Positions 100 through 6,199 of a stretch of 64,000 nucleotides of DNA are shown one piece after another. How positions within the stretch are numbered: position 1 is the first letter of the stretch; each line of letters opens with the position of its first letter. Both the position numbers and the translations under genes were made by a program. Below the pieces are notes generated by a model. The model searched no databases, had not been told where the DNA came from, and was given only the letters and a program-made list of their open reading frames with translations. Source of the stretch: Cryobacterium sp. Y11 (GTDB lineage: Bacteria; Actinomycetota; Actinomycetes; Actinomycetales; Microbacteriaceae); assembly GCF_002929535.1 (NCBI RefSeq), contig NZ_PJJO01000052.1, positions 62,001 through 126,000 of the forward strand. Reading direction: 5' to 3'.

Positions 100-876
100 C
101 TAGTTCTTCGGGGTGGCTCTGCGCAGGGCCCAAAAGCCTCCGATGGCGGCGAGTGCTGTCGGCACCAGCAGCCAGGCGAAGATGCCGGCGATGCCTTGAG
201 CACCGAACCAGATGGCGACCGTTGGGGAGTTGCTGGTGAAGGTGATGATCGTGACGGCGCCGGCGATGGCTAGGGCCAACGAGCTCCAGAACACGAGCAT
301 TCCGGGCATGCGCCCGCGCATATAAATGGTCGCGATCGATGCGCCAACGAAGAACACCAGCAGCTGCATCACGAAGAAGGAGAACAGGTCGACCCAGAAT
401 CCGTCGATACCAAGCCAGATCGCGTTGAACATGTAGGTGTCGATCCACCAACCCTCGGTCAGCTGTTCGAGCTGGGTCAGCACGGCAAACGCCAGCGCAT
501 TCGCGGCCGAGATCAGCACGAACAGCAGTGCGGTGCCGAGGTAGAAGTCTCGGCGGGTCACGCCGAATCCGAGGGCGAGCGGAAACCCGAACGAGATGGC
601 CTGCACACCGACCGCAATTAGATACCCCTGCGGAGCCAGCACCGCCCAGCTGTAGCGCTGGCCCGCGATGGCGTCGGGGGTACCGAGTCCGCCGTTGGTG
701 AAGCCGACGATCTGCGCGAAGAAGACGGTGACGACGAAGGCCATCCCGACGATCAGCCAAGGAATGCCGATGTAGGTGCGACGATCGACGAGGTGTAGTC
801 GCACCACGTTCCAGATGCGTGCCGGGGCGCTGCGCGGGTGAACGGATGTCGGCGTGCTGGTCAGTAAATCGGTCAT
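100..876 (-). CDS. ABC-2 type exporter permease subunit
   Basis: Membrane subunit of a two-gene ABC exporter, 258 residues with about six strongly hydrophobic segments and a short cytoplasmic N-terminus ending near residue 35, as in ABC-2 type permeases. Its ATG overlaps the stop of the upstream ATPase gene by 4 bases, so the two are translationally coupled and should form one transporter. The GntR-ATPase-permease order is that of YtrA-type cell-envelope or antibiotic-stress operons, so an envelope-related substrate is likely, but nothing in the sequence names it. It is the last gene of the operon. Confidence 0.85.
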   Translation of the reverse strand: MTDLLTSTPTSVHPRSAPARIWNVVRLHLVDRRTYIGIPWLIVGMAFVVTVFFAQIVGFTNGGLGTPDAIAGQRYSWAVLAPQGYLIAVGVQAISFGFPLALGFGVTRRDFYLGTALLFVLISAANALAFAVLTQLEQLTEGWWIDTYMFNAIWLGIDGFWVDLFSFFVMQLLVFFVGASIATIYMRGRMPGMLVFWSSLALAIAGAVTIITFTSNSPTVAIWFGAQGIAGIFAWLLVPTALAAIGGFWALRRATPKN

Positions 877-1889
877 GAGTGTGCACTCCAGGCGTCGGTC
901 TTGCTCTCGGTCTGATCGGCGGGTGTGTCCCCGCGGCCTTCGGCTGAGTGGCCGTTACCGGCACCCGTTCTGCCCCGTTGCCCCGGCGCCCTGCGATCCG
1001 CGTCGCGCTCGGATGGCTGGCTCGTCGTGCGCTGCACGATCAGCTGCTGCAGCGACACGGGGGAGATTTCGAGCCCGGCAGCGCGCGCGGTGGCCCGTTC
1101 GGCCTCCCCGAGGCCGGTGACGGTGACTGAGGCGAGCGCGCCGATACCATCTCGGAAAATGATGTCGCGGCCGGCGACAAAGGCATCGACATCCGTTTTC
1201 TTGCCGACAACTGTGCTCGCAGTGCCGCGCAACTCGTCCGCGTCTTGATCGATAAGAATGCGGCCCTCGTCGATGACGAGTACGTGCTCGAGCAGGTTGC
1301 TGACCTCGTCGATGAGATGCGTCGATAAAATAATGGTGCGTGGATGCTCGGCATAGTCCTCGAGCAGGCGATCGTAGAAGATCTGCCGCGCGACCGCATC
1401 GAGGCCGAGGTAGGGCTCATCGAAGAAGGTGAGCGGAGCGCGTGAGGCGAGGCCAACGATCACGCCGACCGCCGAGAGTTGCCCGCGGGAAAGCTTCTTG
1501 ATCGGCCGATTCAGCGGCAGACGAAAGTCCTCGGCCAGCCGGCCTGCGAAGTCCGCATCCCAATTGGCGAAAAACCACGGCGCACTCGCAAACACATGAG
1601 CGGGCCGAAAGCTGTCCGGATACTTCTGAGTTTCCTTGATGAAACACAGTGATTGCAGCACCCGCGCGTTTTCCAACGGCGAAGCTCCAAACACCTCGAG
1701 GGTGCCGCTGGTCGCGAATTGCTGCCCGGTGAGCAACTGCATGAGGGTGGTCTTGCCGGCGCCATTGCGGCCGAGCAGCCCGTAGATTTTGTTGGTCTCG
1801 ACCGTGAAACTCACGTCGTTGATCGCGGTGAAGGCGCCAAATTTCTTGGTGAGGCCGGTGACGCGCACGGCCGGGTCGGTGAGGTTCAT
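873..1889 (-). CDS. ABC transporter ATP-binding protein
   Basis: ATPase of the exporter, 338 residues. Walker A is GRNGAGKT at about residues 40-47, the signature is a variant (LSRGQ near residue 135) and Walker B ends in FFDEP. The switch histidine lies in ILSTHLIDE. The last ~50 residues are polar, charged and low-complexity, longer than a usual 250-300-residue subunit of this class. The gene overlaps the GntR gene upstream and the permease downstream by 4 bases each, giving a tight three-gene operon probably controlled by that regulator. Confidence 0.9.
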   Translation of the reverse strand: MNLTDPAVRVTGLTKKFGAFTAINDVSFTVETNKIYGLLGRNGAGKTTLMQLLTGQQFATSGTLEVFGASPLENARVLQSLCFIKETQKYPDSFRPAHVFASAPWFFANWDADFAGRLAEDFRLPLNRPIKKLSRGQLSAVGVIVGLASRAPLTFFDEPYLGLDAVARQIFYDRLLEDYAEHPRTIILSTHLIDEVSNLLEHVLVIDEGRILIDQDADELRGTASTVVGKKTDVDAFVAGRDIIFRDGIGALASVTVTGLGEAERATARAAGLEISPVSLQQLIVQRTTSQPSERDADRRAPGQRGRTGAGNGHSAEGRGDTPADQTESKTDAWSAHS

Positions 1890-2266
1890 GAGTTGCTCGC
1901 CATTCTGTCGGTCACGGATTCTGCGTTGATCATGCTGGCGACCTGCTCGGCGGTGAGGCCAAGTTTGACAGCCTCGGCCAGCAGCGGGCCGACGAAATTA
2001 GCCCGAAATTGCTCGGTGCGAGCGCCGACCAGTCGCTGCCTGGCTCCGGTGGCTACAAACATTCCTATTCCTCGCTTCTTGTAGAGAATGCCGTCTTCGA
2101 CCAGACGATTGACGCCCTTGCCGGCGGTGGCCGGGTTGATGCGGTGAAAAGCCGCAAATTCATTGGTCGATGGCACGGATGTTTCTTCCTCGATGACGCC
2201 ATCGATGATGTCGTTCTCGATCTGCTCCGCAATCTGCACGAAGATCGGTTTGCCCGCTTCGATCAA
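1886..2266 (-). CDS. GntR family (YtrA-like) transcriptional regulator
   Basis: A 126-residue one-domain GntR regulator: an N-terminal winged helix (IFVQIAEQIENDIIDG, then VPSTNEFAAFHRINPATA as recognition helix) and a short C-terminal helix instead of a large effector domain. That is the YtrA subfamily, which usually represses its own operon of ABC exporter genes. It is the first gene of the operon. An inverted repeat of GTTAGTT/AACTAAC lies about 50 bases upstream of its start and is the obvious operator candidate. DNA binding is certain from the family; the inducer is unknown. Confidence 0.88.
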   Translation of the reverse strand: MIEAGKPIFVQIAEQIENDIIDGVIEEETSVPSTNEFAAFHRINPATAGKGVNRLVEDGILYKKRGIGMFVATGARQRLVGARTEQFRANFVGPLLAEAVKLGLTAEQVASMINAESVTDRMASNS

Positions 2267-2432: not shown

Positions 2433-3842
2433 GTGAAGCGGCGCACGTTTCTGCTCGGCGCGGCGTCTGGTTTTTCCGTGTTGGCCCTCGCCGCGTGCGT
2501 GGCGCCGGCGCCGGTACCGACGACATCCGCTGTGCCCACCACCCTCACGCCATCACTGGTGCCGCGGCCGTTGACCGTCTCCCGAACCAACTGGTCGACC
2601 GACCCGTTCTCCCGCGGATCGTTCAGTTACGCCGCCGTTGGCTCCACGCCTGAGCATCGCACCGCCCTGGGCCAGCCCGTTGACGCGCGCGTCTTCTTTG
2701 CCGGTGAAGCGACAGCGCTCGACGAGCCGGGCACTGTGCAGGGAGCTCGGGCCTCTGGACTGCTAGCGGCCGGCCGGGTGCAGGACGTCGCAGCTCCGGG
2801 CGAGCGTGTGACTATCGTCGGTGCCGGTATCGCCGGCATCACGGCGGCCCGCCAGCTCACCGACGCCGGATTCAGTGTCGTCGTGATCGAGGCTCGCGAC
2901 CGCATCGGTGGGCGCATCGACACCGTCAGCGCCGACTGGCCGTTTCCGATCGAACGTGGCCCCTCCTTTGTGCATCGCAGTACCGACAACTTTCTCGACG
3001 ACGAACTCAGCGGGCTCGGTGTTAGCCTGCTGCCGTTTGTGCGCACCCCCGAGGTGCGTACCAGGGCCGGCGCGGTTGTCGATGTGTCGCCGCGCGGCGC
3101 AGAGGCCGTCGTCGGCGCCCTGGCCTGGGCGGCTGGACAGCAGCAAGACGTTTCGGTCGAGCGCGCCCTGATTGACTCGGGCGAAGCGAACCTGTCGAAG
3201 ACGCCCAATGCCGAGGGTCTGTCGGAGGCCGACTGGCTCGAGTATGAAATCGCAACCCAGCTCAAGGTGGAAACAGGCGCGACGACGAGCCAGCAGTCGG
3301 CCTGGTACACGACCGAAATGGCCACGGTCGATGACGACCAGATCGTCGTGGGCGGCTACTCCACGCTGCTGACGAGCGACGCGACGGGGCTCGACCTGCT
3401 GCTGTCGAGTGTGGTCAATCGCATCGCCCATGATGACAACGGTGTGAGCCTGCGCCTCGGTACCGGCGAATCGCTCTCGGCCGACCGGGTCATCGTGACC
3501 GTTCCGCTTGGCGTATTGCAGAACGCGGCCATCGAATTTTCGCCGGCGCTCCCCTTCGCGCATCGCGGGGCGATCGCGGCGCTCGGCATGGGCGTGCTCG
3601 ACAAAGTCTGGCTGCGTTTTGACGTGCCGTTCTGGGACACCGCGGCGCGGCTCTGGACCATCGTCGGCGACGACGCGGACTTTCCCGTTTGGGTGAACAT
3701 GATGCCGCTCACCGGGGAGCCCATTCTCATGGGTGTTGTCGCGGCCGAGAACGCGACCCGGTTGTCCGAGCTTGACGACGACGCATTTCTCGCTGCCGCG
3801 CTCACCGCGCTGGAACCGTTTCTGGCCAGTCCCGACGAGTAG
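2433..3842 (+). CDS. Flavin amine oxidase-like lipoprotein with permuted FAD-binding ends
   Basis: FAD-dependent amine oxidase family protein, 469 residues, GTG start. The N-terminus carries a twin-arginine-like and lipobox signal (RRTFLL, then LALAAC with Cys22), so it is probably an exported lipoprotein. Residues 54-115 (WSTDPFSRGSFSY, then FFAGEAT and GTVQGARASG) are the motif that normally closes an amine oxidase at its C-terminus. The Rossmann motif that normally opens the family (VTIVGAGIAGITAARQL, then EARDRIGGR) follows at 126-161. The protein stops after LTALEPFLASPDE, where an ordinary family member would continue into the FAGEA segment. The order therefore looks circularly permuted. 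Substrate unknown; it stands alone on its strand. Confidence 0.85.
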   Translation: MKRRTFLLGAASGFSVLALAACVAPAPVPTTSAVPTTLTPSLVPRPLTVSRTNWSTDPFSRGSFSYAAVGSTPEHRTALGQPVDARVFFAGEATALDEPGTVQGARASGLLAAGRVQDVAAPGERVTIVGAGIAGITAARQLTDAGFSVVVIEARDRIGGRIDTVSADWPFPIERGPSFVHRSTDNFLDDELSGLGVSLLPFVRTPEVRTRAGAVVDVSPRGAEAVVGALAWAAGQQQDVSVERALIDSGEANLSKTPNAEGLSEADWLEYEIATQLKVETGATTSQQSAWYTTEMATVDDDQIVVGGYSTLLTSDATGLDLLLSSVVNRIAHDDNGVSLRLGTGESLSADRVIVTVPLGVLQNAAIEFSPALPFAHRGAIAALGMGVLDKVWLRFDVPFWDTAARLWTIVGDDADFPVWVNMMPLTGEPILMGVVAAENATRLSELDDDAFLAAALTALEPFLASPDE

Positions 3843-3887: not shown

Positions 3888-4547
3888 TCAGAGCGCGGAG
3901 CCCCACGGCGGAAGCAGGTGCCGCGGCATCCGTTGCAGCCGGGTTATCCAGGTGAGCAGCGCAGCGATGCACGTGATGATGGCCACGATGATCAGGCAAT
4001 AGGACACGGTCTCTGCTGGGCCGCTGACCTGCCGAGCGTCGAGAAAGAAGTACGGGTACCAGCCAACGATCGGGCTGCGGATGAGCGTGTACACCAGCCA
4101 GAACAGCGGAAACACGATGGCCCAGCCGAGATATTTCCAGGGGAGGCGGGCCTTGAACGGGTCGACCATCCAGTCGATCAGCGCGCAGACCGGAATGACG
4201 AAGTGCAGCAGCTGACTCGACCAGGGCACCTCGATCGAGTAGTTGGCGCCGGACGACTGCCAGACGATGATTCCGTAGACCACTCCGGAGACCAGAATGT
4301 AGGTTGTCACCATGGCGCGCAGCATGTCGACCCAGGCCGGATCGGTTGGCCGACGCAGTGCCACGACAGCCGCCGTCACGAATACCGCAACGGATGCGAT
4401 GGCGCTTTGCACCGTGAAATAACTGAAGAAATTCGCCATCGCAAAAGATGCAACACCGAGGGTGTAGTCGAAGTATCCGATCAGGGCTATCAACCCGGTC
4501 GCGGCCAGACCGAGGCGCGCCAGAGCGAACGCTGTGCGCGTTGTCAT
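3888..4547 (-). CDS. Pr6Pr family membrane protein
   Basis: Integral membrane protein of about 219 residues with six to seven hydrophobic segments and the family feature of aromatic-rich loops (GYFDYTLGV near the start, WKYLGWAIVFPLFWLVYTLIRSPIVGWYPYFF in the second half, of which only part is quoted here as landmark). I start it at the ATG at 4547 because AAGGGGCGGGA precedes it; an upstream in-frame ATG at 4580 lacks a good ribosome site. The family is common in actinobacteria and has no established function. It converges on the amine oxidase gene. Confidence 0.75.
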   Translation of the reverse strand: MTTRTAFALARLGLAATGLIALIGYFDYTLGVASFAMANFFSYFTVQSAIASVAVFVTAAVVALRRPTDPAWVDMLRAMVTTYILVSGVVYGIIVWQSSGANYSIEVPWSSQLLHFVIPVCALIDWMVDPFKARLPWKYLGWAIVFPLFWLVYTLIRSPIVGWYPYFFLDARQVSGPAETVSYCLIIVAIITCIAALLTWITRLQRMPRHLLPPWGSAL

Positions 4548-4617
4548 TCCCGCCCCTTGGTGGGACTCACGCGCGATCATAATGCAACGCTACGCCAGCT
4601 CCGGGGGCCTTCCGGCC

Positions 4618-4887
4618 TTAGTCGGTGATCTGAAAGTCGCTGCCGCCGGTGGTGGTGATATCGCTCACCTCGAGGGCCGTGACCACGGCATAGCGCGGGC
4701 CGGTTTCAAGCCAGTGCAGCATGCTCGAAACGGATGCCACCCGCCCCTCGATTTCGAGTTCCACCGTTCCGTCCGTCCGGTTGCGCACAGAGCCGACGAG
4801 CCCGAGGTGACGCGCGTGAGCCGCCGCATGATATCGAAATCCGACGCCCTGCACCTCGCCCCGGGCGAGCACTCGTTTTCGAATCAC
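4618..4887 (-). CDS. Acylphosphatase
   Basis: Cytoplasmic acylphosphatase, 89 residues, GTG start, hydrolysing carboxyl-phosphate bonds such as acetyl or carbamoyl phosphate. The two catalytic residues are visible: Arg in the phosphate loop [11 protein letters not shown] and Asn in [12 protein letters not shown]. Length is typical for the family. The gene stands alone between the Pr6Pr gene and the divergent rraA. Confidence 0.92.
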
Positions 4888-5062
4888 GGGACTATTCTGC
4901 TCCGACCGCTGCCGAAGCGCGAGCTTGCGAGCGATCGAGATCTCGGGTGATGCAAAGCGGCAGGTCTCGACCGGCGGGTCTCGACCGACAGCATCCGCTT
5001 CTGGCGTTATTCAACTTCTGGCACTGGGCCTACTCTGTAAGCACCGACACCCTGGAGGAACA

Positions 5063-5602: not shown

Positions 5603-6199
5603 TTACTGAAGAACGTCGTCGATGCTCACGACGACGAAGTTGGCGTCAAGATCGACGTCGCGGTCGGTGCCGTTGTCGAGGGTGACCTCAACCTCGTAGA
5701 GGTGGTCCCAGTCGTCGTCGCGGTCAAAGTCCGTCACGCGACCGCTGCCTACCGCGGCGAGGGCTGACGCCTCCGCGCTGGAGCGCTCGCTCGCTGCCTG
5801 GTCAGCCGTGGTCGTGTCGACCGCGGCACTCGGGGCCGCGCTCGGCGCGGATGAGCTGCCGTCGTTCGACGAGTTGTTGTTCGAATTGTTCGTGTTGTCG
5901 TTGTCGTAATCGCCGGTCCAGACCACGTCGAAGGCGTCGTTGAGCTCAACGTCCACGGTGGTGCCGTTGTCGAGGCGCACCTCGAGGTCATAGGCGCTTC
6001 CGCCGTCGTCGTTGCGGTTTGCGTTCGTCACGGTGCCGGGGCCGACCTCGGCGATGGCGGCGTTGCTCGCGCGGTCGAGCGTCTCCCCGGTCAGGGGGCC
6101 GTCGTTGTCGTTGTCGGTCACTGCCACGGCAATGCCCGCGCCGCCCAGCAGCAGAACGACGCCAGCGGCGGTCGCGATGAGAATGTTCTTTTTGTTCAT
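5603..6199 (-). CDS. Membrane-anchored PepSY-like protein with internal duplication
   Basis: A 198-residue envelope protein: N-terminal membrane anchor or signal (residues 5-27), then two copies of a ~55-residue PepSY-like unit (about 40-95 and 142-197). Each unit reads A..AVG.G.V, a D-rich stretch, YEV/YDL, LDNGT, then a D/V-rich end. An Asn/Ser/Ala linker separates them. Such domains sit outside the membrane and often act as inhibitory or binding modules near peptidases or sensor kinases. The neighbouring two-component system and DUF5666-type gene suggest envelope sensing. RBS AAGG precedes the ATG. Confidence 0.75.
   Translation of the reverse strand: MNKKNILIATAAGVVLLLGGAGIAVAVTDNDNDGPLTGETLDRASNAAIAEVGPGTVTNANRNDDGGSAYDLEVRLDNGTTVDVELNDAFDVVWTGDYDNDNTNNSNNNSSNDGSSSAPSAAPSAAVDTTTADQAASERSSAEASALAAVGSGRVTDFDRDDDWDHLYEVEVTLDNGTDRDVDLDANFVVVSIDDVLQ

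Follow-up and report, generated by a model that had tools for sequence, protein, structure and literature searches.

Circular Permutation of the Flavin Amine Oxidase Fold in a Predicted Tat-Exported Lipoprotein of Cryobacterium sp. Y11 and Other Actinomycetota

Flavin amine oxidases, including LSD1, the monoamine oxidases, and the polyamine oxidases, all share, to our knowledge, a single chain order. We present here a protein of Cryobacterium sp. Y11 in which the order is swapped, a real and conserved circular permutation within this well-known enzyme superfamily. The gene lies in a 64,000-nucleotide window of contig NZ_PJJO01000052.1 (assembly GCF_002929535.1; positions 62,001 to 126,000 of the forward strand), and window coordinates are used throughout. 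The product is very probably a Tat-exported, lipid-anchored FAD oxidase with the LSD1/polyamine oxidase fold in naturally circularly permuted form, with FAD placement and activity as predicted features. Searches of the open-access literature turned up no description of a circularly permuted flavin amine oxidase fold. A natural, widely inherited permutation of this kind reveals a loop of the fold that tolerates cutting, shows that a few residues suffice to connect the original termini, and offers a ready scaffold on which to test the influence of chain order on FAD loading and on folding ahead of Tat export. Chain order is also a marker that is missed by PF01593 annotation, which is blind to order.

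Chain order and family membership

The open reading frame (ORF) at positions 2433 to 3842 on the forward strand begins with a GTG start codon, ends with a stop codon at 3840 to 3842, and encodes 469 amino acids. The whole protein scores 219.7 bits against PF01593 (Amino_oxidase), for which the gathering cutoff is 19.8, and so belongs to the superfamily. The match is made in two separate pieces: residues 44 to 116 align with profile positions 370 to 442 (E = 3.1e-17; 63.5 bits), and residues 133 to 465 align with positions 1 to 366 of 443 (E = 2.6e-47; 162.5 bits). In the collinear order, the Rossmann FAD motif comes first and the FAD-closing segment last; here, the two are swapped. Because the profile is used once and is cut at about position 367 to 369, the circular permutation is complete. 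All 46 members of alignment A1 match PF01593 at an E value of 0.001, and none of the best 25 of the 54 NCBIfam models listed for the window protein reaches its curated cutoff.

Within the transposed block, WSTDPF occupies residues 54 to 59, FAGEA residues 89 to 93, and GTVQGA residues 100 to 105, and all three precede the Rossmann motif. The original prediction, made from the DNA letters and ORF translations, had placed this block correctly; it had also put the motif GAGIAG at residue 126, which is where the strand VTIVGAG begins, the motif itself being at 130 to 135. A GGR motif is present alongside the Rossmann GxGxxG, FAGEAT, and PxTVxGA. The protein was further said to end where the C-terminal block would usually start, and the profile match of the core does stop at position 366.

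Searches of the PDB with phmmer aligned residues 43 to 116 with LSD2 700 to 773, the end of that chain, and residues 123 to 461 with LSD2 336 to 692. When used alone, the block (residues 43 to 118) matched 42 distinct PDB sequences (best E = 1.5e-10), in each case at the C-terminal end of the chain or close to it (in MAO-B, 72 residues ahead of the end). These matches bear the names LSD1, LSD2, spermine, polyamine, and N1-acetylpolyamine oxidases, 4-methylaminobutanoate oxidase, MAO-B, and "amine oxidase." The window protein has no second C-terminal block. A second FAGEA segment at the C terminus had been named beforehand as the observation that would speak against a permutation, and it was found neither in this protein nor among the 212 related ORFs classified below. 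The features of the gene and its convergent neighbor are listed in Table 1.

Table 1. Features of the permuted oxidase gene and its downstream neighbor in the window
Feature	Coordinates	Strand	Basis
Tat-type lipoprotein signal peptide, residues 1-21 (MKRRTFLLG...LALAA)	2433..2495	+	Sequence; RR and lipobox kept in main clade
Cys22, predicted lipidated N terminus of mature protein	2496..2498	+	Inferred from lipobox LAAC; conserved in relatives
Pro/Ser/Thr-rich tether, residues 23-42	2499..2558	+	Sequence; low-confidence model region
Transposed C-terminal amine oxidase block, residues 43-118 (contains RTNWSTDPF, RVFFAGEAT, PGTVQGA, and helix 102-119)	2559..2786	+	PF01593 370-442; PDB C-terminal matches; DSSP
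Phe64, aromatic-cage Tyr position	2622..2624	+	Alignment
New junction, residues 119-122 (old C terminus to old N terminus)	2787..2798	+	Profile borders, 22 permuted loci
Core, Rossmann FAD domain and substrate domain, residues 123-465	2799..3827	+	PF01593 1-366; LSD1 fit
Lys391, aligned with near-invariant Lys of ordinary relatives	3603..3605	+	Alignment
Stop codon, where block would usually begin	3840..3842	+	Sequence
Pr6Pr family membrane protein, convergent neighbor downstream of oxidase	3888..4580	-	NF038065, E = 4.5e-36

Structure models

Structure prediction of the chain, which had been proposed as a check, gave a confident AlphaFold2 model (46 permuted sequences; pLDDT 89.5, pTM 0.86), in which 25 residues, nearly all within residues 1 to 23, fall below a pLDDT of 50. 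The model core (residues 122 to 467) was fitted to LSD1 277 to 738 with a Z score of 26.6 over 334 aligned residues (rmsd 2.3). From this fit and the pTM of the whole model, the core is predicted to take an amine oxidase/LSD1-like fold. An ordinary control, L128, modelled with 29 other ordinary oxidases (pLDDT 90.5, pTM 0.87), was fitted to LSD1 274 to 827 with a Z score of 50.5 over 406 residues (rmsd 1.9). The permuted match stops at LSD1 738, about where the block would follow in the ordinary order, and leaves the block out because the aligner keeps chain order.

DSSP assigned strands 48 to 51, 64 to 66, and 87 to 89 and helices 73 to 80 and 102 to 119 to the block of the permuted model. 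In the permuted model, the successive strand, helix, strand, and helix of the block begin at residues 48, 73, 87, and 102; their counterparts in the control begin at 380, 405, 419, and 434, and the spacings are 25, 14, and 15 in each. At the small strand 64 to 66, L128 has only shorter pieces, at 397 to 400. Strand 87 to 89 would need a pairing partner, which is consistent with packing of the block on the Rossmann sheet. Failure of residues 54 to 115 to pack on the FAD site was the other observation named beforehand as speaking against a permutation; the evidence bearing on it is indirect, namely the element spacing shared with the control and the conservation of RVFFAGEAT described below.

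Distribution of the permuted order

The window's own genome contains one full-length match to the protein; seven further hits are weak, cover part of the protein, and fall on other flavoproteins. All 57 Cryobacterium genomes searched (this one included) have the match, six of them being one-contig genomes. Two of these matches are shorter (query residues 29 to 467 and 1 to 412), and the others run from residue 1 or 2 to at least 464. A search for homologues sharing the permuted order had also been proposed, and such homologues were found: 209 loci contain 212 matching ORFs, of which 166 are permuted, 34 are ordinary, 1 is short and permuted, and 11 are partial, with one piece only. The 166 permuted ORFs count some genes twice, as these were reached by two routes; 134 are distinct, comprising 119 from the main clade and 15 others. 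Among the best 80 of 359 relatives, a choice biased toward the query's order, every ORF with both pieces is permuted. No ORF with two blocks, as in a duplication intermediate, occurs among the 212 classified. Profile coverage, this conservation in relatives, and the confident model all support the proposal of a circularly permuted flavin amine oxidase.

At an E value of 1e-60, 82 of 249 Microbacteriaceae genomes match the oxidase profile. The matches start within profile positions 1 to 3 in 80 of them (one ends at 297, and two have an internal stop codon), and the remaining 2, starting at 102 and 126, are presumably ordinary. An even draw of 396 Actinomycetota genomes yielded 25 matches at 1e-40; the permuted order was seen in 11, including one short ORF. 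An overlapping draw covered 296 genomes of the class and gave 33 matches at 1e-60, of which 21 are permuted by span, and 10 of those 21 lie outside Microbacteriaceae. Three other draws, which also overlap, contained the permuted member G501 beside G257 (66 genomes, 8 with a match), the permuted members G283, G187, and G417 (148 genomes, 11 with a match), and the permuted members G238, G1211, and G1206 plus the short G442 (149 genomes, 7 with a match). At the thresholds used in these Actinomycetota draws, the permuted form is sparse outside Microbacteriaceae. Sampling beyond the phylum consisted of three plasmid records from archaea and cyanobacteria (Haloarcula, Synechocystis, and Nostoc, of 9 matching plasmid records), and all three relatives have the ordinary order.

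Several loci are irregular. The permuted gene of Naasia aerilata (L115) is broken across two reading frames and is either a pseudogene or a sequencing error, L117 is truncated by its contig end, and L136 is a 290-amino-acid permuted ORF that stops soon past the Rossmann part. Both L075 and L117 are titled as Bifidobacterium breve metagenome-assembled genomes and carry a permuted oxidase. These bins are probably mislabelled, because the L075 product and that of Actinobacteria bacterium IMCC26207 (L076) have nearly identical ends.

The 22 permuted loci that were compared share a common cut loop, shortly ahead of a W..DP-like motif. By profile borders, the linker from block to core is 4 to 14 amino acids long in these loci and 4 to 5 in the window protein, which is laid out as a tether of about 20 residues, the block, the linker, and the Rossmann strand. 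In 19 ordinary relatives, the core and block are connected by 1 to 20 residues.

Export signal

Residues 1 to 22 of the window protein contain the twin-arginine motif, hydrophobic stretch, and lipobox Cys of a Tat-exported lipoprotein, with cleavage and lipidation predicted. Loose regular expressions, applied to at most 110 residues ahead of the block, found the RR pattern in 118 of the 119 distinct main-clade permuted ORFs, a lipobox in 117, and both in 117. The exceptions are the split L115, which has neither, and L058, which has no lipobox. Among the 15 distinct other permuted ORFs, a lipobox is present in 6 and the RR pattern in all 15, although the pattern is loose and in L166 seemingly matches by chance. 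Tat-like signals were recognized by eye in 10 of the 19 ordinary relatives compared, and the ordinary relatives L151 and L152 carry Tat lipoprotein-like signals. The main clade answers to the original prediction's description of a distinctive exported subfamily. Since ordinary relatives have Tat-like signals too, however, export by itself does not single out the permuted proteins.

Active site and flavin

The sequence RVFFAGEAT is unvaried across the 46 rows of alignment A1. Glu92 is present in all 51 rows of a wider main-clade set, in which the neighboring FAGEAT positions vary. Position 391, which we take to correspond to LSD1 K661 and maize polyamine oxidase K300, near flavin N5, is Lys in 33 of 34 ordinary sequences and in 25 of 26 in another alignment; the PDB listing includes a Lys300Met mutant of the maize enzyme. 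Position 64, presumably that of the aromatic-cage Tyr (LSD1 Y761 and MAO-B Y398), is Tyr in 30 of 34 ordinary sequences and in 25 of 26 in the other alignment. The cage Tyr belongs to the GSYSY motif, and not every member of the superfamily has it.

The window protein has the active-site Lys by alignment (Lys391) and Phe in place of the cage Tyr, a conservative change. Its genus is similar, with Lys at position 391 in 36 of 36 Cryobacterium sequences and Phe at position 64 in 31 of 36, the window protein included. Other permuted lineages have Lys in 14 of 15 and Tyr in 15 of 15, and seven main-clade members from other families have Lys in 6 (with one gap) and Tyr in 7. The remaining distinct main-clade sequences, after removal of Cryobacterium and those seven, number 76 and are nearly all from Microbacteriaceae; here, Lys is found in 5 and Tyr in 2, so that the Lys is lost from most main-clade relatives outside Cryobacterium. 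Because permuted forms with an intact active site exist, these losses most likely came later. Amine oxidation by the window protein is a prediction, given that Tyr is replaced by Phe here and that Lys is absent from most main-clade relatives. The chemistry of the main clade may have shifted, in view of the loss of both residues from most of its members outside Cryobacterium.

Position 63, which we take to be that of the MAO Cys to which FAD is covalently attached, is Ser or Ala in 45 of the 46 A1 rows and Thr in one; covalent 8-alpha-cysteinyl FAD was rejected on this basis. In ordinary rows, Cys is found there in 5 of 26. With no Cys at this position in the A1 rows, FAD is assumed to be bound noncovalently.

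Proposed mechanism and alternatives

We propose that the C-terminal segment that completes the FAD site was moved to between the Tat lipoprotein anchor and the Rossmann strand, with the old termini connected through a short linker and the new termini placed in the loop that ordinarily precedes that segment. Both pieces would fold around one noncovalent FAD in the cytoplasm, Tat would then export the folded holoenzyme, and the Cys would be lipidated. At the outer face of the membrane, the enzyme would oxidize a small C-N substrate, using O2 or some other acceptor. The arrangement may have arisen when the gene of an exported ordinary oxidase was duplicated and the outer parts were then lost; duplication followed by trimming is the textbook route to circular permutation.

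The window comes from a draft genome of 61 contigs, in which two genes or a rearranged contig could be joined by chance, but such an assembly or annotation artefact is ruled out by independent genomes for all practical purposes, with full-length matches across all 57 genomes of the genus, the six one-contig genomes among them, and permuted ORFs in further genome records. It is very unlikely that the block packs on a neighboring subunit, as in a domain swap, and not on its own core: a prediction made for a monomer is compatible with such an exchange, but a linker of 4 to 5 residues in a high-confidence region of the model favors packing within the same chain. Whether the permutation arose once or several times independently at the same loop was addressed with trees in which core and block were set in one common order. 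The number of order changes needed was four in a quick tree (65 rows) and five in a careful tree (59 rows), for which 0% of 200 bootstrap trees placed the permuted rows on one side of a branch, in a bootstrap that was not fully settled. Against this, monophyly of the permuted sequences is not rejected by an AU test (p = 0.247 and p = 0.0999), starred branches force just two changes in the quick tree and one in the careful tree, and a shared cut site fits one event. The common cut site thus favors a single origin and the trees favor several; we consider repeated origins possible but rather doubtful.

A further reading accepts the same permutation and holds that the main clade no longer consists of amine oxidases, its active site having been repurposed for another substrate, for a dehydrogenase that uses a membrane or quinone acceptor, or for a noncatalytic flavoprotein. 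We take this seriously while leaning against it. The scarcity of Lys and Tyr in the 76 main-clade sequences, set against their frequency in ordinary ones, argues for such a change, as do the near-invariant main-clade residues Gly282 (51 of 51 representatives), Trp393 (45 of 51), and Trp420 (50 of 51) and the Pr6Pr membrane neighbor described below. On the other side, Lys is kept in the window protein and throughout Cryobacterium, and the Rossmann FAD motif and Glu92 are retained. It seems unlikely that both departures hold together, with repeated permutation at the same loop in Actinomycetota, almost always in exported enzymes, and a Microbacteriaceae form that lost the catalytic Lys and aromatic cage and took up new chemistry beside Pr6Pr.

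Relation to known systems

The window protein, which we continue to regard as a permuted, exported FAD oxidase, resembles the PF01593 superfamily (LSD1/KDM1A, LSD2/KDM1B, maize polyamine oxidase, murine APAO, and spermine oxidase) in profile coverage, motifs, and core fold and differs from it in its permuted order, export, motif-predicted lipid anchor, and replacement of the cage Tyr by Phe. Ordinary Tat-exported actinobacterial oxidases (for example, L128, L130, L151, and L175) have a Tat-like signal, sometimes a lipobox, and the aligned Lys, and L128, the one modelled, is predicted to have the same fold as the permuted protein; unlike in the permuted form, their block is at the C terminus. 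Natural circular permutations are described for eukaryotic glutathione synthetase (PMC2876114) and for some DNA and RNA methyltransferases (PMC1282579). These represent the same type of rearrangement, with the spatial fold kept, in folds that differ from that of amine oxidases.

Gene neighborhood

Flanking sequence contains a relative of the convergent Pr6Pr gene at 138 of 149 main-clade loci, at 137 of them on the strand opposite the oxidase, and at none of the 34 ordinary and none of the 17 other permuted loci. This control is weaker than it looks, as flanks reach up to 5 kb at some loci and about 1.5 kb at others. Some genes are repeated among the loci. In 54 of 63 measurable pairs from the first locus set, the Pr6Pr gene ends at most 200 bases downstream of the oxidase on the opposite strand. 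A role as strict co-occurrence partner was rejected, with Pr6Pr present in 213 of the 249 Microbacteriaceae genomes and the oxidase profile matched in 82. Since Pr6Pr is widespread in the family, nearness alone is notable. Pr6Pr is a possible partner of the main-clade oxidase, outside the permutation itself, and shared descent accounts for the nearness equally well as function. The name Pr6Pr was not met in the open-access papers searched. Two Frigoribacterium loci, L063 (approximately 4098 to 4943, forward strand) and L066 (approximately 4096 to 4908, forward strand), have a second Pr6Pr gene immediately upstream of the oxidase and in the same orientation, and also keep the convergent downstream copy; G952 has the same extra upstream gene, which in G1061 lies at a distance of about 1.5 kb.

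Upstream of the oxidase, positions 100 to 2266 (reverse strand) of the window contain genes for a GntR-type regulator, an ABC ATPase, and a membrane-like protein without a family match, all in one direction, which we take to be a YtrA-like arrangement. Upstream families resembling the regulator, the ATPase, and the membrane protein in size and place were found at 11 loci each, all in Cryobacterium. Positions 5603 to 6199 (reverse strand) encode a secreted-looking protein with weak PepSY matches and a middle region rich in Asn, Asp, and Ser.
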